DNA of 56,352 nucleotides from an uncultured Enterovibrio sp. GTDB taxonomy: Bacteria > Pseudomonadota > Gammaproteobacteria > Enterobacterales > Vibrionaceae. Made by a program: the position numbers and the translations under genes. The stretch's first letter is position 1. Every line of letters begins with the position of its first letter. Positions 11,531 to 39,550 of this stretch are shown in pieces. The stretch is from contig CAMRDW010000002.1 of the NCBI GenBank assembly GCA_947041315.1, positions 1-56,352 of the forward strand, in the 5' to 3' direction. The notes beneath the pieces were generated by a model. The model ran no database searches. It was not told the origin of the DNA and worked only from the letters and a program-made list of their open reading frames with translations.

Positions 11531-12286
11531 TCAAGAAGGTGGATTTTCAATAAATGCATTGTATTTTACAAAGAATGCACCAAGTTTCGACATCAGCTCC
11601 TTGGCCATATCCATTTCATTTTTTATGCGTTCCAGATCACTCTGAGGCGCAATATCTGATTCTACCAGATGTTCGGAGAGGTGCGGCGCAAATATCCTTG
11701 CCAGGTTTTCCTCTGTCATTTTATTTTGATTTTCATATTTTTTAATAACAGGAAGCAGAGAAAGAAGGCAATTAAAATTTGGTGGGAATGTATTGCAAAA
11801 ATCTCTTGTTAATGGCGTTGTTTGAGTGATAATCCTTTGAATTTGCTCCGCATTCTCTTTCGTCAAGGAGTCTTTAAAATACGCTTTAAACAAGTTGCAC
11901 TGTAAATAAATATCTTGATTTGTCTTCATTAAATGCTTGTCTATGTTTTTTTGTGCGTTTGTTATGTCAGAGCTCTGAACGCATTGTCTAAATATCCCTT
12001 CATTTTTAAAATCATTCTCCTTGCTTAACAGTTGGGTTTTGAGTCTTTCTAGTGTTGGGCTATCACTGGTACCTGTCTTTTTTTTTCCGCATTTAAAAAA
12101 CGCCCAGAATCGTTTACAGCAACTTGATTCCTTTTTTTGGTTAACGCTTTGATTGTCCGTCGCTGTGTTTTGTGTTGACGGTGTAGAATGGGTATTCATC
12201 ACCCCTGAAATATGGGTACTGGATGCGGTATCAGGGAGATAAATTAAGTTTATAGAGTACGCCAGTGACGTCGGAGAGATATGCAT
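11531..12286 (-). CDS. RhoGAP-domain protein, possible eukaryotic-like effector
   Basis: This 251-residue protein has a region (about 75-235) matching the eukaryotic RhoGAP fold. ENDFKNEGIFRQCVQ carries the arginine-finger position (Arg100). LFKAYFKDSL stands where the family has K-x-FLRELP. NKMTEENLARIFAPHL is the hallmark helix with the conserved Asn. RhoGAPs speed GTP hydrolysis by Rho/Rac/Cdc42, which bacteria lack, so a host target is likely. The first ~45 residues are polar and there is no Sec signal. CCKRFWAFFKCGKKK near 60-75 is Cys-rich and basic and might be a lipidation or membrane-binding patch (inference). ATG 12286 has GAGG six bases upstream. No secretion genes are nearby. Confidence 0.75.
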   Translation of the reverse strand: MHISPTSLAYSINLIYLPDTASSTHISGVMNTHSTPSTQNTATDNQSVNQKKESSCCKRFWAFFKCGKKKTGTSDSPTLERLKTQLLSKENDFKNEGIFRQCVQSSDITNAQKNIDKHLMKTNQDIYLQCNLFKAYFKDSLTKENAEQIQRIITQTTPLTRDFCNTFPPNFNCLLSLLPVIKKYENQNKMTEENLARIFAPHLSEHLVESDIAPQSDLERIKNEMDMAKELMSKLGAFFVKYNAFIENPPS

Positions 12287-12392
12287 TTCAAACCTCAAAT
12301 GGTATATGGTTTCATTTTATTTTTTAGTCTTTCGGGACGGGTTCTTTTCGTTATTATATTTAACTGGAAATACATTCTATTTTATTATGTTA

Positions 12393-26381: not shown

Positions 26382-26678
26382 ATGAAAATCGTAGCGATTA
26401 CAGCATGTCATACCGGAATTGCTCATTGTTATATGGCTGCAGATCGTCTTATCCATGCCGCCCAAAGTCTTTCAATTCAAATCAAAGTTGAAACACAAGG
26501 GGCCATGGGAATAGAAAATAAATTATCAAAAAGAGAGTTTGATTCTGCAGATCATATTTTATTAGTAACAGAGATTTTTATTAGCGAAAGTGAACGATAT
26601 GAAGGGAAAAACCCTATTTCACTTTCCATGCAAGATGTTATTAATAATGCCACCGATTTATTAAAAAAACTTAAGTGA
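26382..26678 (+). CDS. fryB: PTS fructose-type EIIB component (FryB-like)
   Basis: The 98 residues form a single EIIB-Fru domain that passes phosphate from EIIA to sugar via a cysteine. The start KIVAITACHTGIAHCYMAAD matches the EIIB motif T-A-C-P-T-G-x-A-H, with active Cys9; histidine replaces the usual proline after it. EGKNPISLSMQDVINNATDLL closes the domain. It overlaps the reading region of the next gene and has no EIIC partner here. In E. coli fryA, fryB and fryC are clustered with aminopeptidase genes. Confidence 0.88.
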   Translation: MKIVAITACHTGIAHCYMAADRLIHAAQSLSIQIKVETQGAMGIENKLSKREFDSADHILLVTEIFISESERYEGKNPISLSMQDVINNATDLLKKLK

Positions 26679-26683
26679 TTAAT

Positions 26684-29164
26684 ATGAAAAAAGAATTGAA
26701 TTTTATTTGTGTATTACCCAATGGTATTCATGCGCGTCCTGCGAATCATCTTGAAGCCGAGTGCCGTCCATTTAAAAGTGAAATTACCTTATGTAATTTG
26801 AAAAATAACCATAAAGGTTCGGCCAAAAGTGTTTTATCTTTGGTCGGTACGGACACCTTGTTGAATGATCCTTGTATGCTGCTTATCGAAGGAGAAGACG
26901 CTGAGCTTGCGTTTGATGCTTTGTCTAAATACATGACAGAGGTTTTTCCTCATTGTGATGAAGCCCTTGTTGTGATGGACGACTCGGAGGTGTCTTTGCC
27001 TCAATCTTTGATGCGTCATTCACCTTCGCTTCTTGTGGCTAAACGCCTTTCTGCTGGTGTGGCGAAGGGCACCTTGGTGCGTTACACCGAAATTTCTTTT
27101 TCTCAGTTTGAAGAGGCGAATTCAAATTTTACATTTGAAAAAACCAAAGAGCAGGTGACTTTTTCTTTGCTTGATAAGCTCGAAAAGGCATCAGGACAAG
27201 AAAAAGAAATCATTCACGCCCATCTTGGAATATTAAAAGATGAGACTTTAAATGAAAAAGTCACAGGGTTTGTGTCACAAGGTCAATCTCTTGCAAAAGC
27301 CATTATTTCAGCTGCAAACGAGATCAGTGAAACCTTGTTGCAGTCGTCGTCTGATTATCTAAAAGAGCGCGTGCTTGATATCAAAGACATTGCCTTGCAG
27401 CTTTTAATATCGGCGCACCCTGAGCTGAATATTTCAACTCGTTTTGTCTTGACGTCGCCTTCGATTGTTATCGCGAACGATTTAACCCCCAGTCAATTTT
27501 TAGGTTTAGATCGTGACCTTTTAAAAGGTCTGATATTAACCAAAGCGGGTTCGACCTCTCACACGGTTATTTTGGCCCGTGCCTTTAATATTCCTACCGT
27601 CTCCGGTGTTTCTATTGACGCTTGCAAAGAGGAAGAAGGAAAAACACTTTATCTTGATGGTCAATTGGGTGTGATTGCGCTGTCGCCTTCTGAAAACGTG
27701 GCCCGTTATTTTGAACGTGTGCTTTGGCTTTCTCAAAAAACAGCGGGCATTGAACAGGCGTTTTTGCATCAAGCTGGGCAAACAAGAGACAATAAGCAAA
27801 TTGAAATTGCGGCCAACATCGCGTGTCCTGTTGAAGCCACCCCTGCCTTTGAAAAAGGCGCGCAAGGCATCGGTTTGTTTAGAACTGAAATGCTCTTTAT
27901 GGACAGAGCCACACCGCCTTTAGAAGAAGAGCAATTTAACGCTTATAAAGACGTGCTGGAAGCGGCGGATAAAAAAGCGGTGATCATTCGTACAATGGAT
28001 ATCGGTGGCGATAAGCCACTTGATTATCTGAATTTGCCTCATGAGCACAACCCCTTTTTAGGCTACCGCGCTGTGCGGATTTATCCGCAGTTTATTGCGC
28101 TTTTTCACACGCAACTTCGTGCGATTTTGCGGGCTTCTCTGTTTGGTCACACCAAAGTCATGATCCCCATGATCCAAAGCATTGAAGAGATCCGCTGGGT
28201 GAAAGCGCAAATTGAGCTTGTGAAAGCCGGGCTTGAACAAGAAGGCGTTGCTTTTGGGCATATTGAGCTTGGGATCATGGTTGAAATCCCTTCTGTGGCC
28301 TTCATCATGGATAAATTTTGCCAAGAAGTGGATTTCTTTAGCATTGGCTCCAACGACATGACCCAATATCTATTGGCTGTGGATCGTGATAATGATAAAG
28401 TCTCCTCTTTATATAACAGTTTGGCTCCGTCTTTTCTTCGTTTGCTCGGAACCGTGGTGAATGCGGCGCACGCGAACGGCAAATGGATCGGTTTGTGTGG
28501 TGAGCTTGGCGCGAATAAAAAAGTATTGCCCCTTCTCATTGGCGCAGGTTTAGATGAGCTGAGTATGGCGGCCCCGAATGTTGCGCCGACGAAAATGGCT
28601 TTACGTCAATTTGACAGTGCGCAGTGTGCAACCTTATTTAATGAAGCCTGTGATTGTGCAACCATCAGTGAGGTTGAAGCCTTGTTGGATGTTTTTGCCC
28701 GTTCACAAGAAAATAAACCCTTGCTTTCAAATGAATGTGTGCTTCTTGAATGCGACGCACAAACGAAAGAAGAAGCGATTCAAACCTTGGTAGGGAACCT
28801 TGGGGTGCATGGACGAACCTCGGTTGCCAATGATTTAGAAGCCGATATTTGGGCCCGTGAAGATGTTTTTACAACGGCCCTTGGCAATGGTTTTGCGATA
28901 CCGCATACGAAATCAGACAATATCATTCATTCTTCGATTTCGATTGCCCGTTTAAACAAAACGGTGCGTTGGAGTGAGGAGGATGACTCGGATGTGGATT
29001 TCATCATCATGCTGACGTTAAACAAAGATCAAGGTGATCAACACATGCGCATTTTCTCCGGTCTTGCGCGCAAACTGATCCATGAAAGTTTCCGTAATAC
29101 CCTTAAAACGATGAAATCAGAAGATGAAATCATCGCTTACCTGCATTCAGAACTTTCTTTGTAA
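26684..29164 (+). CDS. fryA: Multiphosphoryl transfer protein HPr-EI-EIIA(Fru) (FryA-like)
   Basis: This single 826-residue chain carries the general PTS enzymes and a fructose-type EIIA. The HPr domain has NGIHARPA (His16). The EI domain has GSTSHTVILARAFNIPTVSG (His293) and the pyruvate-binding part GLFRTEMLFM, FRTQLRAIL-like and IGSNDMTQYLLAVDRDN. The EIIA domain is at about 680-826 with GNGFAIPHTKSD (His741). The order and sequence match E. coli FryA (PtsA type). It would take phosphate from PEP and give it to FryB. ATG 26684 is six bases after the fryB stop; GTG 26675 overlapping that stop is also possible. A hairpin without T-run follows, then a mannosidase gene. Confidence 0.92.
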   Translation: MKKELNFICVLPNGIHARPANHLEAECRPFKSEITLCNLKNNHKGSAKSVLSLVGTDTLLNDPCMLLIEGEDAELAFDALSKYMTEVFPHCDEALVVMDDSEVSLPQSLMRHSPSLLVAKRLSAGVAKGTLVRYTEISFSQFEEANSNFTFEKTKEQVTFSLLDKLEKASGQEKEIIHAHLGILKDETLNEKVTGFVSQGQSLAKAIISAANEISETLLQSSSDYLKERVLDIKDIALQLLISAHPELNISTRFVLTSPSIVIANDLTPSQFLGLDRDLLKGLILTKAGSTSHTVILARAFNIPTVSGVSIDACKEEEGKTLYLDGQLGVIALSPSENVARYFERVLWLSQKTAGIEQAFLHQAGQTRDNKQIEIAANIACPVEATPAFEKGAQGIGLFRTEMLFMDRATPPLEEEQFNAYKDVLEAADKKAVIIRTMDIGGDKPLDYLNLPHEHNPFLGYRAVRIYPQFIALFHTQLRAILRASLFGHTKVMIPMIQSIEEIRWVKAQIELVKAGLEQEGVAFGHIELGIMVEIPSVAFIMDKFCQEVDFFSIGSNDMTQYLLAVDRDNDKVSSLYNSLAPSFLRLLGTVVNAAHANGKWIGLCGELGANKKVLPLLIGAGLDELSMAAPNVAPTKMALRQFDSAQCATLFNEACDCATISEVEALLDVFARSQENKPLLSNECVLLECDAQTKEEAIQTLVGNLGVHGRTSVANDLEADIWAREDVFTTALGNGFAIPHTKSDNIIHSSISIARLNKTVRWSEEDDSDVDFIIMLTLNKDQGDQHMRIFSGLARKLIHESFRNTLKTMKSEDEIIAYLHSELSL

Positions 29165-29189
29165 GCAGGCGCTTCACCCTAAAAACAAG

Positions 29190-29211
29190 CCTGCATCCTG
29201 ACGGATGCGGG
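29190..29211 (+). other. Hairpin between the PTS gene and the GH92 gene
   Basis: A 9-bp stem (CCTGCATCC with GGATGCGGG, one G-T pair) has a 4-base loop and no T-run. It may be an attenuator or RNA-stabilising hairpin rather than a terminator, leaving open read-through into the mannosidase gene. Confidence 0.5.
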
Positions 29212-29264
29212 TAAAACGCATTTAGACGTTATTGCTGAAAAGCGACTTTTTAGAGGTCCATTTT

Positions 29265-31688
29265 ATGAAAAACAAATTGACACCGTGTGCTATCGCGGTG
29301 CTTATTTCTTTAATTATTACAGGTTGTAATAAAGACTCTCCTTCTAATATTCATTTAACTGATACCCCCCTTAATCTGTCTTTACTTCAATATGTTGACC
29401 CCATGATTGGGACCGCAGGATCTGGACATACTTTTCCTGGCGCTGTCGTGCCTGCTGGCATGGTGCAGTTGTCACCGGATACCTTTATCGGATCGGGAGC
29501 AGGGCATGAGTCAGGTGAAAATCCTTGGCATTCGGCTTCTGGCTATTGGGATAAATCTCTTTATGGGCCAAACGGGCAAATCTTCGACACGGATTTAAGT
29601 CTTTACGGCTTTTCTCATACCCATCTTTCTGGGACTGGCGCCACTGATTTAGGAGACATTCTTCTTTTACCTTTTTCAAATCAGGCCGATGCGGATTTAA
29701 ATGCCTTTAATAAAATAAACGAAGTGGCCAAGCCGGGGTATTACAAAACCCAACTCAATAAAGGCGAGATTGAGGTTGAGCTGACAACCACAAAACGTGT
29801 GGGTTTACATCGCTATACCTTTAAAGCCGGGACCGACAGAAATATAAAACTCGATTTAGGTCACACCTTAAAGAACAACAATGGCGCCTCGCTTAGAAAT
29901 AAAATCCAATTCATTGACCCTTACACCATTCGAGGCCTTAAGTCCTCAACGGGTTGGTTCCAAGGTCAAGAGCATCAAGGGCAAGATGTATATTTTTATG
30001 CAAAATTTAATCTGCCTGTTGGGGGGGCCTTGTTAGGTGAAAATTCGGGTGTTCCAGCACGAGAAATGCGTTTCAACAGCGTGTATACAGGCACTGATTT
30101 AAAGACTCATTTGAATTTTGGAATTGGAGATGAAGCGCTGGAAGTGCGGGTGGGTATTTCTCCTGTCAATTGGCACGGCGCTCAAAAGAATTTAGAAGCA
30201 GAAGCCCCGACCTTTGATTTTGAAGGCGTGAAACTCAACGCAGAAAAAGCCTGGGCACAAAAGCTGAATACCATTCAAGTTGAAGGCGGTACGGAAAAAG
30301 AAAAGAAAATTTTCTATACCGGTCTTTACCACATGATGATAGCCCCCATTGAATTTTACGATGTGGATGGACGCTACGTGGACATGCTGGGAACGATTCG
30401 CACCCTTAAAGAAGGTGAAACCCCGAATTATTCCATTTATTCGACTTGGGATACTTTCCGTGCGGTTCATCCTTTATGGACCATCATCGACCCAAAACAG
30501 GCCACGCTTTATGTGAGAGATTTGATTCGAAAATCAAATGACGAATTTGGTATGCTTCCTAAATGGGAAGGGCACGGTTCAGAAACGGGCACCATGATAG
30601 GGTATCCTTCGACGGCGATTGTCGGGGATGCGGTAACAAAAGGCTTGGTTGACGCGAAAGAAGCCCTTGATGCATCGATAAAATCGGCTTATTACCGTCC
30701 ACATGATTTCTCGCAAATCAAAGATGAGATCCTGACGTCTTTGATGCCAGGACAATTGAATTACCACATTAACGAAAAATGTGTGCGCGCGCCGAACTGG
30801 AACTCGGTGTCTTATGCGCTGGAGTATTCCTACTACGACTGGACCATTGCAGAAATGGCCAAAGCTGCGGGAGACATGGCTCTTTATAATGAATTTAAAG
30901 CGCGTTCTGAATTTTCTCTCAATCATTGGGACCCGGCTTTTGGTTTCTTTGTTCCTACGGTACAAGCAGGGGAAAATAACTGTGCTTTCCTTGCCGGCTC
31001 TGGAGCACAATGGGACACGGAGAACTATCCAAACGGGTTTGATCCTTATGTTGCCAATCCGTTGTTTTTCACTGAAGGAAATGCGTGGCAGTGGCAATGG
31101 ACCTTCATGCAAGATTTTGACAAGTTAACCGAAGTGATGGGCGGGACGGAAGGCTTTAATCAAAAGCTGAATGATCTTTTCAGCGCAGACTCAAACCAAG
31201 GTGATCAACATCAAGACATGACAGGGTATATCGGTCAATATATTCATGGAAATGAGCCTTCACACCATGTTATTTACCTTTATAACCGCACCAACGAATC
31301 TTACAAGGTGCAAGAATATATCGACAGAGTGTACGATGAGTTTTATACCACATCCCCTGATGGGATCATCGGAAATGAAGATGTAGGACAGATGTCGGCT
31401 TGGTATATCATGTCTGCCTTGGGTTTTTATCAGGTCTCTCCAACCGATCCAACTTACAGCATTGGTCGTCCTATGTTTGATAAAGCGACCATCTCGATGG
31501 GGGGCGGTACCTTCACTGTCATCGCTGAAAATAACGGTCCAGACAACCTGTATGTTCAATCTGTGACCATCAATGGCAAACCTTTGAACAAATACAATAC
31601 CTTTAAGCATGAAGAATTTGTGAAAGGTGGCGTATTACGCTTTGTGATGACAAACAATAAAGCAGAGGCGATGGCGGCCAATATTTAA
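29265..31688 (+). CDS. GH92 exo-alpha-mannosidase, lipoprotein
   Basis: The 807-residue protein has a lipoprotein signal (IAVLISLIITGC, Cys about 21) and then a two-domain glycoside hydrolase family 92 enzyme. DPMIGTAGSGHTFPGAVVP (near 45-63) is the N-terminal hallmark. Catalytic-cleft motifs are PKWEGHGSETGTMIGYPST (near 433), GNEPSHHVIYLYN (near 662) and GNEDVGQMSAWYIMSALGFY (near 703). GH92 enzymes are calcium-dependent inverting exo-mannosidases that remove alpha-1,2, -1,3 or -1,6 mannose, typically from N-glycans. The lipid anchor suggests periplasmic or surface action. ATG 29265 has GAGGT seven bases upstream. The bond specificity cannot be read from sequence. Confidence 0.92.
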   Translation: MKNKLTPCAIAVLISLIITGCNKDSPSNIHLTDTPLNLSLLQYVDPMIGTAGSGHTFPGAVVPAGMVQLSPDTFIGSGAGHESGENPWHSASGYWDKSLYGPNGQIFDTDLSLYGFSHTHLSGTGATDLGDILLLPFSNQADADLNAFNKINEVAKPGYYKTQLNKGEIEVELTTTKRVGLHRYTFKAGTDRNIKLDLGHTLKNNNGASLRNKIQFIDPYTIRGLKSSTGWFQGQEHQGQDVYFYAKFNLPVGGALLGENSGVPAREMRFNSVYTGTDLKTHLNFGIGDEALEVRVGISPVNWHGAQKNLEAEAPTFDFEGVKLNAEKAWAQKLNTIQVEGGTEKEKKIFYTGLYHMMIAPIEFYDVDGRYVDMLGTIRTLKEGETPNYSIYSTWDTFRAVHPLWTIIDPKQATLYVRDLIRKSNDEFGMLPKWEGHGSETGTMIGYPSTAIVGDAVTKGLVDAKEALDASIKSAYYRPHDFSQIKDEILTSLMPGQLNYHINEKCVRAPNWNSVSYALEYSYYDWTIAEMAKAAGDMALYNEFKARSEFSLNHWDPAFGFFVPTVQAGENNCAFLAGSGAQWDTENYPNGFDPYVANPLFFTEGNAWQWQWTFMQDFDKLTEVMGGTEGFNQKLNDLFSADSNQGDQHQDMTGYIGQYIHGNEPSHHVIYLYNRTNESYKVQEYIDRVYDEFYTTSPDGIIGNEDVGQMSAWYIMSALGFYQVSPTDPTYSIGRPMFDKATISMGGGTFTVIAENNGPDNLYVQSVTINGKPLNKYNTFKHEEFVKGGVLRFVMTNNKAEAMAANI

Positions 31689-33250: not shown

Positions 33251-34177
33251 TTATTTCGTCATGATGACTTCGGCTTGACGCGCTTCGGGTTTGTCCATGC
33301 CGGAGGTCCAATACCAATAGGTGATGTTTCCAGGGCAATTGAGGCTGACCACTTTGTGATTATTGTGCTTGTCGATGGCGTGAATGGTGACCCCTTCGGT
33401 GTAGCCGTCTTTTAGGTAATCTAAATCCTTGATGGCTTCGTAGACTGCGTCATCCAAAGACAAGCCCATTTTCATGTAAAGCACCACGGCGTGTGAAGTG
33501 GCGCAACGGATGGCCATTTCACCTGTGTGAGTGCAGGCGCATGCGCCGTAACGGCTGTCTGCGTAAGAGCCTGCCCCAATGATGGGGCTGTCTCCTAAGC
33601 GGCCTGGGTATTTCCATGCCCAACCGGATGTTGAAGTGGCCACGCTGATTTTTTTATGGGTGTCTTGACAGAGAAAAACGGTGGTGTCTCTTACGCGCTC
33701 AGGATCGGTGGCGTTATTGGAAAGAGGGGCCAAAGGGAGGTGAGGGAAGGCGGCTTGCTCTTCTTTTGTCATGGATTGCTCCAGTTTTTCCCACCATACG
33801 CGTTTGGAGTCTTCAATCAAATTGTTGCCCGCTTTGGCGCCTATTTCTTTGGCAAAAAGAGCGGCACCTTCACCCACTAAAATTTCATGGTTTAATTCGG
33901 TCATGATTTTGTGGGCCACTTCCACGGGGTGCATGTAGCCTTTTAACGCGCCTACCGCCCCTGTGCGCAAGGTGTCTCCGTCCATGACGGAGGCGTCCAA
34001 TTCCATTTCACCTAAGACATTGGGCCAGCCGCCGTAGCCGACGGTGCGCACGCGAGGGTCAAGCTCGACGCGCTTTATGCCTTCAATGAGAGAAAGTAAG
34101 CCATCTTGGCCTTCATTTAATTGGCGTGCACTGTATTCGATTCCTGGGTAGGCTTCTGAATTTGCTAATAAAATCAT
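33251..34177 (-). CDS. N4-(beta-N-acetylglucosaminyl)-L-asparaginase (glycosylasparaginase)
   Basis: This 308-residue Ntn-hydrolase cleaves the GlcNAc-Asn link left after glycoprotein breakdown, giving aspartate and GlcNAc. It matches the human/Elizabethkingia enzymes: VGYGGWPNVLGEMELDASVM, DGDTLRTGAVGALKGY, LVGEGAALFAKEIG. The self-cleavage site is RDT-TVFL, with nucleophile Thr165. Substrate-binding GRLGDSPIIGAGSYAD and THTGEMAIR follow. ATG 34177 has AGGAAG five bases upstream; the frame runs 18 codons further but would overlap the preceding gene. It has no signal peptide, so it should act in the cytoplasm on imported substrate. Last gene of the operon. Confidence 0.88.
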   Translation of the reverse strand: MILLANSEAYPGIEYSARQLNEGQDGLLSLIEGIKRVELDPRVRTVGYGGWPNVLGEMELDASVMDGDTLRTGAVGALKGYMHPVEVAHKIMTELNHEILVGEGAALFAKEIGAKAGNNLIEDSKRVWWEKLEQSMTKEEQAAFPHLPLAPLSNNATDPERVRDTTVFLCQDTHKKISVATSTSGWAWKYPGRLGDSPIIGAGSYADSRYGACACTHTGEMAIRCATSHAVVLYMKMGLSLDDAVYEAIKDLDYLKDGYTEGVTIHAIDKHNNHKVVSLNCPGNITYWYWTSGMDKPEARQAEVIMTK

Positions 34178-34203
34178 TTCTACTTCCTTGGTAATTCTGA
34201 TAT

Positions 34204-35583
34204 TTATTTTTGTGTTATCAATTTTTGACAAAGTGCGCTCAACAAGAGCACGCCATAGCCTGAGGCGGCTTTAGGGTAAATTTTTCGGTGTTGCATCCCT
34301 AAAGACATGGCGGCGGAATCGATGTGAATCCATTTTTGTTGCGGTTCAATAAAATGATTTAAGAAGGTCGCGGCAACGCAGGCGCTTCCATCCGGCTCTT
34401 CACTGCCGTGGCGGATGTCTGCAAAATCACTTTTTAAAGACGCTTCATACAGATCATGGGCAATGGGCATGTGCCAAAGGGGTTCGGCGCACTCTAAACC
34501 CGCTTCTTTTGCCGCGTCGATGAATGGGAGATCGTTGCCCATTAAGGAGGCATAGGCTTTGCCTAAAGAGATCCCGGTTGCGCCTGTTAAAGTTGCAATA
34601 TCAATAAGATAATCAGGGTTGTATGTTTTTTGAGCGTAATCTAAAACATCCGCCAGTACCATGCGCCCTTCGGCATCGGTTGTGATGATTTCAACCCCTT
34701 TACCGGAACGCATCCTGACCACATCTCCGGGTTTTATGGCCTCCCCTGAAGGCATGTTTTCAACCAATCCGCATAAACCGATGACTCGAACAGGGCATTG
34801 CATGGCAGCAATGGCGTGCATGCATCCCACAACGGCCGCCGCTCCGCCCATGTCGACTTTCATGGTGCTCATAAAACGAGGCTGCTTGATGCTTATTCCA
34901 CCCGAATCAAAGGTGACGCCTTTGCCGACAAGGGCCAAGGTGATCTTTGCGTTTTCTGGGTGATAATCCATGCACAATAACCTTGCCTCACGGCTGCTGC
35001 CTTGGGCTATTCCCATTAATCCGCCAAATCCTTGTTCTAGCATCATTTTTTCATCTAAAAAGGAAAGGTTAACGCCTTTCATGTTCAATTCTTGTACTGC
35101 CTGAACGAAGCTTTCAGGGAAAAGAAGATTGCCCGGTTTGTTCATTAATTCGCGGGAAATGATTTGGCTTTTTGCTAAGGTTTCGCCTTCTTTAAACGCT
35201 GATATCAATGCGTTATTGTCGCTGTTAAGGGAAAAATGCGCTTGAGAAAAAGAAAGATGGACACTTTCTGTGTGCTTGTATTCATAGCCTGATAACGCCA
35301 AGCCAAAAGAGAGCCATTTAATCCAGATTTCAACGGAGAAAGAAGGATGCAGGTTTTTTTCAATACTTAATTGAAGGCGCGCTGTTTTTTTAAATTGAGA
35401 GCCCAACAAAAAGCCAATGTCTTGGAGATCTGAAATGGAAAAGGTGTCTTTGCTAATTTCTGCATTAAACATTTCAACATCATGATTTAAATCGAGTGTT
35501 TTTTCTTTTCCCATTTTCAAATGCACGGTTTTAACATTTTCGCTTTCTTGAGGATGAAGACGGATAAATTCAATGTGAAGCAT
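34204..35583 (-). CDS. M17 leucyl aminopeptidase family protein
   Basis: This 459-residue cytoplasmic exopeptidase has the two-metal M17 active site: LVGKGVTFDSGGISIKQ, STMKVDMGGAAAVVG, GLVENMPSGEAIKPGDVV and the signature TTDAEGRMVLADVLDYA. It removes N-terminal residues from peptides. The N-terminal domain (about 1-150) is poorly conserved, as usual. It lies between the permease gene (48-base gap) and glycosylasparaginase (26-base gap) in the same operon, suggesting it trims imported glycopeptides until glycosylasparaginase can act, since that enzyme needs a free alpha-amino group on the asparagine (established for the family). Confidence 0.88.
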   Translation of the reverse strand: MLHIEFIRLHPQESENVKTVHLKMGKEKTLDLNHDVEMFNAEISKDTFSISDLQDIGFLLGSQFKKTARLQLSIEKNLHPSFSVEIWIKWLSFGLALSGYEYKHTESVHLSFSQAHFSLNSDNNALISAFKEGETLAKSQIISRELMNKPGNLLFPESFVQAVQELNMKGVNLSFLDEKMMLEQGFGGLMGIAQGSSREARLLCMDYHPENAKITLALVGKGVTFDSGGISIKQPRFMSTMKVDMGGAAAVVGCMHAIAAMQCPVRVIGLCGLVENMPSGEAIKPGDVVRMRSGKGVEIITTDAEGRMVLADVLDYAQKTYNPDYLIDIATLTGATGISLGKAYASLMGNDLPFIDAAKEAGLECAEPLWHMPIAHDLYEASLKSDFADIRHGSEEPDGSACVAATFLNHFIEPQQKWIHIDSAAMSLGMQHRKIYPKAASGYGVLLLSALCQKLITQK

Positions 35584-35631
35584 AAATAAAGAGGATCCTT
35601 AAAAAAAGAGGGGAGAGCCCATGATAAAAAC

Positions 35632-36645
35632 TCAGGTTCTTTCAGGTTCAAAAACAGGCTTTGTTTCGTCTTTTATTGCCTTTAATTGGCTTGTTTTTTT
35701 CCAACGTTTTAAGCCTGTGTGTGAACGCAATTGCGGATTGGCAATTTCATCTACAGCGAAATTGAGCAAAGACAAACCGATAGCGATAAAGGTTAAGGCC
35801 AAGCAAGGGGATAAAATTTCCCACCAAGCGCCCACTAACATCGAAGAGGAGGTTTGGACGTTATAGAGCATGACGCCCCAACTGATGGAATTGGGATCGC
35901 CAAGCCCTAAAAACGACAAACTGGCTTCCGTCATAATGGCCAGCAAAACACAGCCGATAAAACTGGCCCCAATGATGGACATTAAATTGGGCAATATTTC
36001 AACGGCGATGATCCGCCAAGGTTTTTCACCTAAGACTTCGGCCGCAAGAACAAACTCTTTTTCACGCACGCTCAAGGTTTGCGCTCGGATCACCCGCGCC
36101 CCCCAAGCCCAAGAGGTGATGGCGATGACGATGGCAATCGTTGTGGGACCCGCTTCCCCGATGAACGCGGCGATGATAAACAACAAAGGAAGCTGAGGAA
36201 CCACCAACATGATGTTCATGGCCGCGCTCAAATAATCATCGATTTTCCCACCAAAATAACCGGCAGTGATGCCGATGCTCGTCGCGAGGAAACACACCAA
36301 AACGCCGGCGCCAATTCCCACCGCAATAGAGGTTCTTGCGCCATAAACAAGCTGAGACCAAACATCTCGGCCCATTCTTGTGGTGCCCAAGACATGCTCT
36401 GCCTTTTCTGACATTCGCAGGGTGCGTTTGTTGGTTGCAAGGTGTGTGGCTATCCAGCCTTCTGGGTTATTTTTGGCCGCATTCACAACAAAAGCCGGGT
36501 ATTCGTGTGGGTTGCCGGTCCCTTTGTCGGGGGCATGCGTGGTAATGAAAGGGGCAAAAATCGCAGCCAGCATAAAGGTCAGTAAAATGCATAGACCCGC
36601 CATTGATTTGGGATTGCCCATGAGGAGCTTCAATATCATTTTCAT
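35632..36645 (-). CDS. Oligopeptide/chitobiose-type ABC transporter permease (DppC-like)
   Basis: This 337-residue inner-membrane permease is of the OppC/DppC class. It has an N-terminal helix (SMAGLCILLTFMLAAIFAPF), a long periplasmic loop with VLGTTRMGRDVWSQLVYGAR, and the ATPase-contact loop RAQTLSVREKEFVLAAEVLG. The C-terminal LSFLGLGDPNSISWGVML is a class hallmark. The start is ATG 36645, one base after the stop of the partner permease (TAAGATG), so the two are coupled. Its binding protein upstream is of the chitooligosaccharide type. No ATPase gene follows. Confidence 0.9.
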   Translation of the reverse strand: MKMILKLLMGNPKSMAGLCILLTFMLAAIFAPFITTHAPDKGTGNPHEYPAFVVNAAKNNPEGWIATHLATNKRTLRMSEKAEHVLGTTRMGRDVWSQLVYGARTSIAVGIGAGVLVCFLATSIGITAGYFGGKIDDYLSAAMNIMLVVPQLPLLFIIAAFIGEAGPTTIAIVIAITSWAWGARVIRAQTLSVREKEFVLAAEVLGEKPWRIIAVEILPNLMSIIGASFIGCVLLAIMTEASLSFLGLGDPNSISWGVMLYNVQTSSSMLVGAWWEILSPCLALTFIAIGLSLLNFAVDEIANPQLRSHTGLKRWKKTSQLKAIKDETKPVFEPERT

Positions 36646-36646
36646 C

Positions 36647-37633
36647 TTATTTTTTCCCTTTACGCAGGCGAGGATCCAAGTAAACAATCATGAGATCGGC
36701 CATAAAATTAAAAAAGAGCATAAACATGGTCATTAACAAAAGTTGCCCTTGTAATACTTGGTAATCACGGGCGTGAATGGCATTTAAAAGCACGGTTCCA
36801 AGGCCGGGATAGTTGAAAATCATTTCAACAATCAATTGACCACTGATGGCGCTTCCTAAGGCCATAGACAATGCGGTGACACTGGGCAGCATGGAATTTC
36901 TGGCGGCATAGTTAAAGACCACACGGTTTTCACTCAATCCCTTGGCTTTGGCCAAGGTGATATAGTCTTCGTTGAGCAGATTGATCATGTTGTTACGCAT
37001 GCTGATAAGAAAGCCGCCAATTTGCCCTATGGTGGCGCAAAATAACGGCAAGACGGCGTGGTAGGCCACGTCCTTATAGAATGCCCAACTTCCAAAATCA
37101 GGAAGGGTGCCGGAGGTGTATGCATTTCCTGAAGGGAACCATTCAAGCCCGATGGCGAAGGTGTAAAGCACGAGCATGGCGATCACAACAGAAGGAATAG
37201 ACTGAACAACCAACATGCTGGGTGAAATAAAGGCATCGTAATGGCTCCCACGTCGCCATGCGGCGAAAATCCCAAGAACAGAGCCAATGCAAAAGGCTAA
37301 AATAATGGCTGTCCCCGTTAAAAATAAGGACCAACCTACCGCGCCGCTTAAGAGTTCTGTGACTTCGATGGGGTAAAATTTAATCGACAATCCCCAATTG
37401 CCCGTAAAAATATTGGCAAGATAAGAAAAATACTGTTGGTACAAAGGGGCATCCACAAAGCCAAGCAATTTTTTCATCGCTTCAATGCGTTCAGGGGTCA
37501 CATGGGCCATGGCATTGGCAAACATCATGGTGACAGGATCCCCTGGCATGGCGCGAGGTAAGATAAAATTGAGGGTCGCAGCAAAGAGCAACGCCATCGC
37601 ATAAAATGACAATCGCCTTAAGAAAAAATCCAT
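36647..37633 (-). CDS. Oligopeptide/chitobiose-type ABC transporter permease (DppB-like)
   Basis: This 328-residue OppB/DppB-class permease has the start RRLSFYAMALLFAATLNFI, the family motif PRAMPGDPVTMMF, six membrane helices, the EAA loop NEDYITLAKAKGLSENRVVF and the end IVYLDPRLRKG. It forms a heteromeric channel with the DppC-like protein. AAGGAC lies about seven bases before ATG 37633. The gap to the binding-protein gene holds hairpins that could lower permease relative to binding-protein expression. Confidence 0.9.
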   Translation of the reverse strand: MDFFLRRLSFYAMALLFAATLNFILPRAMPGDPVTMMFANAMAHVTPERIEAMKKLLGFVDAPLYQQYFSYLANIFTGNWGLSIKFYPIEVTELLSGAVGWSLFLTGTAIILAFCIGSVLGIFAAWRRGSHYDAFISPSMLVVQSIPSVVIAMLVLYTFAIGLEWFPSGNAYTSGTLPDFGSWAFYKDVAYHAVLPLFCATIGQIGGFLISMRNNMINLLNEDYITLAKAKGLSENRVVFNYAARNSMLPSVTALSMALGSAISGQLIVEMIFNYPGLGTVLLNAIHARDYQVLQGQLLLMTMFMLFFNFMADLMIVYLDPRLRKGKK

Positions 37634-37673
37634 TTCTATGTCCTTAAAGTTAAAACAAGCCGCTCACCAGAGT

Positions 37674-37692
37674 CGCCTCTGAAAAAGAGGCG
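37674..37692. other. Hairpin between binding-protein and permease genes
   Basis: A 7-bp perfect stem (CGCCTCT with AGAGGCG) has a 5-base loop and TTTTTT on the plus-strand side. For the minus-strand operon it would be a stem without T-run, possibly an mRNA-stability element. Confidence 0.5.
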
Positions 37693-37850
37693 TTTTTTGA
37701 GTCTAAAAAGGAGAAGCAAACCTCGGTTATTTTCATTATTTAGTCATCATGATCCTTGAATAAGCGCCAAAAGTGGCAAACTGATCCAAACCCTGGGATG
37801 CATGTTTATTGAGAGGAAGTGTGTTTTTTTGCTCTTAAGCGAGATGAAAG

Positions 37851-37878
37851 AAGCCGTTGACGTTGAGGGCAACGGCTT
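37851..37878 (-). terminator. Hairpin just after the binding-protein gene
   Basis: A 9-bp perfect stem (AAGCCGTTG with CAACGGCTT) has a ten-base loop and a weak T-rich tail on the minus strand. A partial terminator here is common between an abundant binding protein and its permeases. Confidence 0.55.
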
Positions 37879-37885
37879 TCTTTTA

Positions 37886-39550
37886 TTAAGATCTCGGTTT
37901 TAAGTCTAAAACGTGCAGTAAACGTTCAGGAACACCCGCCCAAGACAAAGGACGTCCTTTGGGATTGTCAGCGCTCCACCAACCGGTAAAGCGGCTTTCA
38001 TTAAACTGATACACGTCAACACCGGACATCACAGGCACGGTGATTTGGTTTTCGGCGATGATTTTTTGGATTTTGTGTGCGATGTTTTTTTGTTCATCTT
38101 GTTTTGCTGTTTTGTAAAAGCTGTCAAGCAAGTTGTCTAACGTTTCATTTTTGTAAAAATGCATGGCAAAGCGAGGCATGCTTTCTCCTTGTTGATAACG
38201 AGAATGATACGCGCTTTCCCAGTATTTGTGAGGATCGGCCCCTAAGAAATAATTGGTATAAGCCACATCATAGGTGCCTGTAACCATGGCTTTGTTGTAC
38301 ACTGCGAAATCGGCTGTTCTGGCTTTCGCTTTGATACCCGCCGCTTCAAGCTGCTCGACGGTCAATTGCACCGTGTTGTTAAAATCGGTCCAGCCTGTTG
38401 GCGATTGGACTTCTAAATGGATGCTCTTGCCTGTTGGGGTTTCGACAAAACCGTCTCCATTAATGTCTCTAAATCCAGCTTTTTCTAATAAGGCCTTTGC
38501 GTTTTTTAGGTTGTAAGTGTTAAACCCGCGAAATGATTCATAGGTGTTTTTATCCGCCCAAAATTCAAAGACTTTCCCTAAACCAGAAGCATAATCATTG
38601 ACGACGCCATTGCCGTAAAAGGCAATATCGATGATTTTTTGACGATCAATGGACATGGAAAAGGCACGACGAAAATCGAGGTTATTAATGGCTTCGTTAT
38701 TCCCAGGATTGGGGGTTTTAAAGTTCAGCATCAAAGATTGGGTGCTGGCTGCGGGATACCAATATTTGTGGTTTTTATTTCGGCTGGTGTAGGTGCTTTC
38801 TATGTCTGGAATAAACGCCGCTGTCCAATCTAATTCTGATTTAATGATTTTACTTAAAAGTTGATCGTTATTGGCAATTTGTGGAACCCGTAGACAATCG
38901 ACCTCTAAATTGTCGTTATCCCAATAATGGGGATTACGGCATTGAACATAAAGCTGAGCGGTGAAAGTGCTTATTTCTGTAAAAGGCCCGCTTCCGACAG
39001 GGTTCGCGTTTGTATAAAGTTCAGGAAGATTGACGTCTTTCCATATGTGTTTTGGGACAATGGGAATGGTGGATATTTCGTATGGGAGGTTTGAATTGGC
39101 TTCTTTTAAATTAAAAATAACCTTGTTATTTTCTTGTTTGACCGATTTTATCCAACGCGCCATTCCTTTCGGATCAAGCTCTGGTTTTTCACGTAGAAGA
39201 TCAAAAGAATAGACAACATCTTCTGCAGTAAATGCCTGACCATCTGACCATTTTACCCCATCACGAATTTCAAAAACGACCTGCATGAGATCATCCGACA
39301 TGTAATAATTTTTGGCCAAACGCATTACGGGTTTATTGCCTTGCATTTGATTGAAAATAACCAAAGGCTCATAAATGAAGTCGGTCGTGGTCCGTAAATT
39401 GGTCGCCAAATACGGGTTGAAATTGCGGATCAGTGTGGGGTAAAAATCAGAAACAAGGGTGAGGTGTGTTTTTTCTGCGGCAACAGCGCCGGTTGAAAGC
39501 AATGAGGCCAAGATGAGCGCCGCCAGGGTGTTGTATCCATTCTTATGCAT
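37886..39550 (-). CDS. Periplasmic (GlcNAc)2/chitooligosaccharide-binding-type solute-binding protein
   Basis: This 554-residue family-5 solute-binding protein has a signal peptide (LAALILASLLSTGAVAA). It is strikingly close to the Vibrio chitooligosaccharide-binding protein CBP: TDFIYEPLVIFNQMQGNKPV, VKWSDGQAFTAEDVVYSF, DCLRVPQIANNDQLLSKII, SPTGWTDFNNTVQLTVEQL, RFAMHFYKNETLD, and the end WAGVPERLLHVLDLKP. As I recall, Vibrio CBP holds GlcNAc2 with Trp363, Asp365 and Trp513. The equivalents here are Trp387, Asp389 and Trp537, with the same 150-residue spacing. It leads the operon, with AAGGAAG before the ATG. The ligand is therefore probably a chitobiose-containing compound rather than a plain peptide. 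Confidence 0.88.
   Translation of the reverse strand: MHKNGYNTLAALILASLLSTGAVAAEKTHLTLVSDFYPTLIRNFNPYLATNLRTTTDFIYEPLVIFNQMQGNKPVMRLAKNYYMSDDLMQVVFEIRDGVKWSDGQAFTAEDVVYSFDLLREKPELDPKGMARWIKSVKQENNKVIFNLKEANSNLPYEISTIPIVPKHIWKDVNLPELYTNANPVGSGPFTEISTFTAQLYVQCRNPHYWDNDNLEVDCLRVPQIANNDQLLSKIIKSELDWTAAFIPDIESTYTSRNKNHKYWYPAASTQSLMLNFKTPNPGNNEAINNLDFRRAFSMSIDRQKIIDIAFYGNGVVNDYASGLGKVFEFWADKNTYESFRGFNTYNLKNAKALLEKAGFRDINGDGFVETPTGKSIHLEVQSPTGWTDFNNTVQLTVEQLEAAGIKAKARTADFAVYNKAMVTGTYDVAYTNYFLGADPHKYWESAYHSRYQQGESMPRFAMHFYKNETLDNLLDSFYKTAKQDEQKNIAHKIQKIIAENQITVPVMSGVDVYQFNESRFTGWWSADNPKGRPLSWAGVPERLLHVLDLKPRS

Follow-up and report, generated by a model that had tools for sequence, protein, structure and literature searches.

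A candidate operon for import and cleavage of the N-glycoprotein core stump in an uncultured Enterovibrio

Little work has addressed what becomes of the N-acetylglucosaminyl-asparagine (GlcNAc-Asn) stump when bacteria use N-glycans, and the only pathway that we found for it in the open-access literature is that of Lactobacillus casei. There, the alf-2 cluster (alfH, alfC, asdA, alfR2, pepV, asnA2, and sugK) is reported to take up fucosyl-GlcNAc-Asn via a permease of the major facilitator superfamily (MFS), after which the cytoplasmic glycosylasparaginase AsnA2 splits it to GlcNAc and aspartate; the peptidase gene is described as dispensable for growth on a single glyco-amino acid (PMC6960285). 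A second described system is the ATP-binding cassette (ABC) importer for chitobiose (GlcNAc2) of Vibrio. In its chitobiose-binding protein (CBP), as described for VhCBP with GlcNAc2, the nonreducing sugar occupies site 1, the innermost one, and the reducing end faces outward in the outer site 2, with a third sugar loosely held at site 3 (PMC8449061, PMC10667598). Here, we analyze a minus-strand operon (positions 39550 to 33251) that combines elements of both. It lies in a contig of 56,352 nucleotides, called the window below, from the 3.69-Mb genome of an uncultured Enterovibrio sp. (Vibrionaceae). We conclude, with a probability of about 0.72, that the operon is a salvage system for the core stump of N-glycoproteins, which would be imported and then cleaved within the cell.

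The operon, its binding protein, and its permeases

All five open reading frames (ORFs) are open and intact, in the order given by a preliminary description of this DNA. The first gene (37886..39550, 554 aa) encodes a paralogue of the periplasmic chitobiose-binding protein, here called CBP2 (SBP_bac_5, E = 5e-61), with a signal peptide recognized by inspection. It is followed by two inner-membrane permeases with BPD_transp_1 domains, permease B (36647..37633, 328 aa) and permease C (35632..36645, 337 aa from the ATG at 36645, also OppC_N), by an M17 aminopeptidase (34204..35583, 459 aa; Peptidase_M17, PF00883, E = 6.5e-105), and by a glycosylasparaginase-like N-terminal nucleophile (Ntn) hydrolase (33251..34177, 308 aa; Asparaginase_2, E = 2.9e-54). 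The gaps between the genes had been called short, which holds for the last three (1, 48, and 26 bp) but not for the 252 bp between CBP2 and permease B. Within this first gap, folding of positions 37800-37890 places a minus-strand hairpin 3' of CBP2 (37847..37883; -17.1 kcal/mol, z = -3.8) that none of 200 shuffled sequences equaled in stability, and that is probably a partial terminator or an mRNA-stabilizing element. Such hairpins are common 3' of binding-protein genes, so that CBP2 and the rest are likely co-transcribed. A promoter scan returned fewer promoter-like sites than were found in shuffled sequences (8 versus a mean of 11.5).

The five-gene order recurs in 17 of the 20 loci around the best asparaginase matches, which rules out a chance row of genes; one of the 17 (L038) has the CBP and both permeases in frame-broken pieces. 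Genera with the cassette are Enterovibrio, Photobacterium, Aliivibrio, and, with one member, Vibrio. At the locus of Enterovibrio coralii (L146, 2836..6587, plus strand), CBP2 and both permeases are frame-broken with the peptidase and asparaginase intact, by either sequencing error or decay.

The best phmmer matches of CBP2 in PDB include the chitin oligosaccharide binding protein 1zty (E = 8.4e-265, 882.7 bits), and the match to VhCBP (5yqw) is nearly as strong (E = 1.5e-249). In a tree of 43 CBP sequences, the asparaginase-adjacent copies form one clade of 22 (support, 100/100), which branches among canonical chitobiose CBPs, near some of those from Photobacterium. On these sequences, CBP2 is a paralogue of the chitobiose-binding protein of Vibrio, and it is monophyletic. 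Trp387, Asp389, and Trp537 align to Trp363, Asp365, and Trp513 of VhCBP and are, as previously noted, equivalents of its GlcNAc2 contacts; Asn228, Phe246, Asn433, Phe435, Arg460, and Phe461 align to further contacts. Measured against the site 1 and site 2 contacts of VcCBP, 10 of 11 residues are identical in the window, the exception being Ser220 (Ser221 of VhCBP), which is Ala245 here.

This pattern holds across the clade, which we compared as 22 CBP2 sequences (the window and 21 loci, with L146 left out as its CBP is in pieces) against 19 canonical copies, or CBP1, for which a locus was available; further canonical copies were found besides these. In VcCBP numbering, Asp9, Asn203, Phe221, Trp362, Asp364, Asn408, Arg435, and Trp512 are kept in all 22, and Phe410 and Phe436 are kept in 18. 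In contrast, position 220 is Ala (19/22) or His (3/22) in CBP2 and Ser in 19/19 CBP1, and position 101 is Pro in 22/22 CBP2 and Gln or Arg in 19/19 CBP1. According to the published structural accounts, the VhCBP equivalent of Ser220 touches the site 1 GlcNAc (PMC8449061), and Gln101 lies at the interface of the Upper2 and Lower domains, on the side of sites 3/4 (PMC10667598). The residues kept and changed suggest that the GlcNAc core is probably still read by CBP2, with the innermost pocket and the outer side altered. As the reducing end of the sugar faces outward in VhCBP, an Asn attached to it could be accommodated.

Permeases B and C are 77% and 71% identical, respectively, to the canonical chitobiose permeases of the same genome. 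The preliminary description took the binding protein and permeases to be a transporter; all three components are present, but the operon has no ATPase, which had gone unremarked. Among the 22 named loci, the interval between permease C and the peptidase holds two OppD/F-type ATPases in 11 (the first only partly matched in L159) and none in the other 11, as in the window. Loss in assembly can be ruled out, as the same junction is seen in G000, in G014 (a near twin of the window's genome), and in 10 named Photobacterium loci. The genome that contains the window has a close ATPase pair at a second locus, on contig C56 (86% and 82% identical to the pair of Enterovibrio baiacu), together with a CBP (66%) and permeases of its own and then further genes. 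GH20 was confirmed among these genes, which we take, with the other gene names assumed, to follow the order of the Vibrio cholerae chitobiose operon. All eight ATPase-less genomes tested keep a close ATPase pair at another locus with its own CBP, and each of the 19 genomes that carry the CBP-type cassette gave one or more additional CBP matches. Therefore, the window importer probably borrows the ATPases of the separate canonical chitobiose operon. The ATPase-less forms are scattered on the CBP tree rather than grouped, so the sequences suggest that the ATPases were probably lost from the cassette more than once. Given that the cognate ATPases are absent from the operon, we class it as a paralogous variant and not as a complete chitobiose-type importer.

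Hydrolases and the link to N-glycan degradation

The asparaginase has an Ntn-hydrolase fold, and its best sequence and fold match is the glycosylasparaginase of Elizabethkingia. Its proposed nucleophile, Thr165, agrees with the likely start codon (ATG at 34177), and, as had been stated for this enzyme, no signal peptide is seen by inspection; the same is true of the M17 peptidase. The residue before the nucleophilic Thr is Asp in glycosylasparaginases and Gly in isoaspartyl peptidases. Asp-Thr occurs in 19/19 sequences of the window clade, whereas five of five isoaspartyl-type paralogues of related genomes have Gly-Thr. These residues and matches suggest specificity for GlcNAc-Asn. The peptidase scores below the cutoff of all 13 matching NCBIfam leucyl-aminopeptidase/PepB models. 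It had been proposed to expose the free alpha-amino group that glycosylasparaginase needs; this requirement stands, but a free alpha-carboxyl group is described as necessary too (PMC6960285), so an aminopeptidase alone would not finish a glycopeptide.

Relatives of the asparaginase outside this cassette occupy comparable settings. We found 398 and surveyed the loci of 80 of them, where the M17-asparaginase pair occurs in 22/22 CBP-type loci. CUT1 sugar importers accompany the M17 gene in 11/80 loci (six Serratia, four Pasteurellaceae, and one Photobacterium), of which those from Serratia also carry a second, Dpp-like importer. Polar-amino-acid importers without M17 are found in 42/80, mostly in Rhizobiales, with some in Vibrio and others. 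The remaining contexts are two POT peptide transporters, one position directly after GH20, and two others. Thus, M17 is present in 33/33 CBP- and CUT1-type loci, and none was found in the remaining 47. Most simply, a peptidase would be needed where glycopeptides are imported, but not where the importer takes up single glyco-amino acids. LacI-type regulators occur in 41 of these 47 loci; ROK-type kinases occur in 20, including two weak matches (27-28% identity). The placement of relatives beside sugar, amino-acid, or peptide transporters is what would be expected for a glyco-amino acid substrate.

Some of these loci have features of their own. In Mesorhizobium albiziae (L187, 7977..10918, plus strand), the GH20 gene overlaps the asparaginase start, a direct pairing of beta-GlcNAcase and asparaginase, and in two Neisseriales metagenome-assembled genomes the gene for a POT-family peptide transporter overlaps that of the asparaginase (L180, 8566..10948, and L182, 3520..5947, both plus strand). 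CutC, which to our knowledge has no settled enzymatic role, is encoded in 24 of the 47 loci outside the CBP and CUT1 groups, in three of four Pasteurellaceae loci, and in the GH85 cluster of G140 described below (the asparaginase loci outside the CBP type considered for this are L163, L174-L220, and L265). It may handle the 1-amino-GlcNAc product. Since 86 of 91 Vibrionaceae genomes encode CutC, its co-occurrence is uninformative in this family.

The evidence for a link between the cassette and N-glycans is strong. In 15 of 22 named loci, the gene immediately upstream of CBP2 belongs to glycoside hydrolase family 2 (GH2), and a 16th locus (L146) has this gene in pieces; a domain scan of the L149 copy identified it as a beta-mannosidase, and the other copies were assigned by clustering. 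GH2 is encoded in 10/10 asparaginase genomes tested, including that of the window, where it is on contig C148. Inspection of three translated copies revealed no signal peptide, so this beta-mannosidase probably acts in the cytoplasm, and the core mannose may still be present on the ligand when it is imported. In the window, a GH92 alpha-mannosidase with a lipoprotein-type signal (LIITGC, by inspection) is encoded on the plus strand at 29232..31688 (PF07971, E = 7.7e-141; PF17678). This gene, which the preliminary description did not mention, is convergent with the operon at a distance of 1.56 kb; we consider it functionally linked to the operon and not part of it. GH92 adjoins the operon in 6/22 named loci as well, and the window's genome has five such genes, four of them in tandem on contig C98.

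Across 91 genomes of the family, the asparaginase was found in 20, GH92 in 19, and both in 17 (Fisher's test, 1.6e-13), that is, GH92 in 17/20 genomes with the asparaginase versus 2/71 without it. When labels were permuted within genera, at most 14 shared genomes arose in 20,000 runs, and the observed 17 was never reached. GH2 is in 20/20 asparaginase genomes, which within-genus permutation matched in 1 of 20,000 runs. Among the genomes counted, two have broken or fragmentary genes (G001 and G005), one has its asparaginase beside another transporter (G029), and two have only fragments as GH92 matches (G009 and G061).

Other neighbors and relatives bear on the route. In Enterovibrio calviensis, the operon is followed by a GH38 gene, genes of the phosphotransferase system (PTS), and one for an RpiR-type regulator; these gene clusters recur in three other loci. 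GH85 was not found in any of the 17 asparaginase genomes (of 20) searched for it, with GH18 outside that search, a result consistent with exo-trimming down to the asparagine; characterized GH85 enzymes are described as acting on N-glycans only (PMC10154615). A PNGase N-domain search of 17 genomes gave no match, and no control genome matched either. In G140, from another family, one gene run encodes a TonB receptor, a BadF-type kinase, a secreted asparaginase of the Elizabethkingia-like type, GH85, CutC, GH2, a symporter, and GH92.

Upstream of GH92 in the window lies a gene for a fused PTS protein (26675..29164, plus strand) with HPr, EI, and fructose-type IIA parts (NCBIfam TIGR01417 and TIGR00848). 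By eye, such a protein adjoins or lies within ~5 kb of GH92 lipoprotein genes both here (26675..31688, plus strand) and in L254, L257, L259, L260, and L264, accompanied in L254 by an EIIC gene. Possibly, it takes up mannose released by GH92.

Proposed pathway and alternative explanations

We propose that GH92 lipoproteins and proteases would trim glycoproteins outside the cytoplasm and that CBP2 would capture what remains, a stump of (Man)GlcNAc2-Asn that is either free or carried by a short peptide. Its sugar would be held in the closed inner sites, and its Asn end would point to the open sites 3/4. Permeases B and C would import the stump, powered here by the two ATPases that belong to the canonical chitobiose operon. 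Once it is in the cytoplasm, the beta-mannosidase would remove the core mannose, the M17 peptidase would free the alpha-amino group of Asn, and the glycosylasparaginase would split GlcNAc(2)-Asn to aspartate and a sugar destined for GlcNAc/chitobiose catabolism. Uptake and cleavage of N-glycan-derived glycoasparagine, as originally suggested, is thus upheld by the conserved GH2 and GH92 neighbors, within-genus co-occurrence, GlcNAc2 contacts, Asp-Thr motif, and glycosylasparaginase matches, but not with the ligand and transporter as first written. Man-GlcNAc2-Asn, with or without a peptide, is as likely a ligand as GlcNAc(1-2)-Asn, given a beta-mannosidase with no visible signal peptide.

Several observations weigh against salvage of the stump. 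As noted, the operon has no ATPase of its own. In the window, GH2 is not adjacent to the operon, and GH2 is also found in 21 genomes without the asparaginase; three of the 20 asparaginase genomes have no GH92, and two GH92 genomes have no asparaginase. The asparaginase forms a separate clade that the tree (midpoint rooted, with long branches, and with L023 left out) does not join to known glycosylasparaginases in preference to isoaspartyl peptidases, and the nearest sequence outside this clade (L022) has Gly before its presumed nucleophile. Compared with the Elizabethkingia enzyme, two positions in loops are changed (Trp11 to Ser, and Thr-Gly to Thr-His). Moreover, the S221A variant of VhCBP is reported to bind GlcNAc2 normally, with no cost in affinity (PMC8449061), so the change at Ser220 need not cost CBP2 its chitobiose binding. 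With nearly all chitobiose contacts kept, CBP2 may simply bind chitobiose.

The last point is the core of an alternative in which CBP2 and the permeases are a spare importer of chitin-derived GlcNAc2, with which the peptidase and asparaginase share a transcript as unrelated passengers. The branching of CBP2 among chitobiose CBPs and the probable sharing of ATPases with the chitobiose operon agree with it. We nevertheless consider it unlikely, as the cassette genomes have a further CBP match in every case, and that of the window has a full canonical operon; the M17-asparaginase pair is present in every CBP-type locus and also in all 11 CUT1-type loci, whose transporters are unrelated; Ser220 is changed in every CBP2 and kept in every CBP1; and the linkage that we detected, with no search made for chitinases, is to mannosidases. 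Somewhat less probable still is scavenging of isoaspartyl or other peptides, with the hydrolase acting as a beta-aspartyl peptidase on what peptide uptake and M17 deliver. The residue before the nucleophile separates the window clade from the isoaspartyl-type paralogues, and sugar-type partners (CUT1, GH20, ROK kinase, GH2, and GH92) would be unexpected for such a substrate.

The absence of both ATPases, from the window operon as from half of the named loci, might instead indicate a decaying remnant, with the rest of the operon drifting. This we regard as very improbable. Relative to the near twin genome G014, the ratio of nonsynonymous to synonymous substitutions is 0.06 for the asparaginase, 0.12 for M17, 0.08 for permease C, 0 for permease B, and 0.05 for the CBP, and no gene has a stop. 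The ATPase-less five-gene form is unbroken in 11 named loci, and every ATPase-less genome tested retains the pair elsewhere.

A broader version of stump salvage can be offered only tentatively. CBP2 would serve an ABC importer dedicated to the beta-mannosylated core, Man-GlcNAc2-Asn, on its own or on a short peptide. Gram-negative bacteria would thereby complete the breakdown of N-glycoproteins in the cytoplasm, in a way that resembles the animal lysosome. The importer would have evolved from that for chitobiose via its innermost pocket (Ser220 to Ala or His), giving up its own ATPases in several lineages. The enzyme clade (398 relatives) would then represent a glyco-asparagine hydrolase that is widespread in bacteria and has been combined with no fewer than four classes of transporter; CutC might provide a further step. 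If stump salvage is correct, marine Vibrionaceae have an ABC-importer version of glycoasparagine use, and a chitin-sugar importer has been naturally re-aimed at glycoproteins. It would also provide a testable function for an asparaginase-like clade, in which the 80 surveyed of the 398 relatives include Rhizobiales, Serratia, and Pasteurellaceae.

Elsewhere in the window, a minus-strand gene (11531..12298) encodes a RhoGAP-domain protein (PF00620, E = 6.7e-11), a eukaryote-like domain in a bacterium and possibly a host-directed effector. Scans of the window gave no Rfam match and no tRNA.

Comparison with known systems

In the open-access literature (subscription papers being mostly outside its coverage), we found no description of the Vibrionaceae operon. 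The preliminary description went further and knew of no operon with this make-up, which does not hold, as alf-2 of L. casei already joins a permease, the peptidase PepV, the glycosylasparaginase AsnA2, and a sugar kinase (PMC6960285). Its observation was confirmed and its interpretation was largely right in kind, if incomplete regarding the ATPases and likely ligand, but the system is less unprecedented than it appeared.

The asparaginase shares with the Elizabethkingia (Flavobacterium) enzyme (PDB 1p4k and 9gaf) the Asp-Thr nucleophile of the wild type, the VGYGG-P motif, and the GR-(V/L)-GD segment. It differs in having ~25% identity over the fold, in the replaced Trp11 loop, and in the signal peptide, which is present there and not seen here. 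In the N-glycan loci of Bacteroides, Streptococcus, and Xanthomonas, GH92 and further mannosidases likewise trim N-glycans, but the glycan is described as being freed by GH18, GH85, or PNGase, usually outside the cell (PMC10154615).

Compared to the Vibrio chitobiose importer, the binding protein and permeases are paralogous and nearly all GlcNAc2 contacts are kept. The window operon differs in the absence of its own ATPases, in the changes at Ser220 (to Ala or His) and Gln101 (to Pro), and in its linkage to M17, the asparaginase, and mannosidases rather than to chitobiose-pathway genes.

With alf-2, the operon shares the clustering of a transporter, a cytoplasmic glycosylasparaginase, and a peptidase, with the qualifications that the window transporter has no ATPases and that the enzyme's location was judged by inspection. 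The account of alf-2 gives it an MFS permease that needs the 6'-fucose of its ligand, an M20 peptidase, a fucosidase, and a kinase, and its gene list names no binding protein or ABC permeases. Fucosidase and sugar kinase genes are not among the five of the window operon, the flanking ORFs having been scanned in part. We conclude that the window operon would work like alf-2 but is not a member of it.

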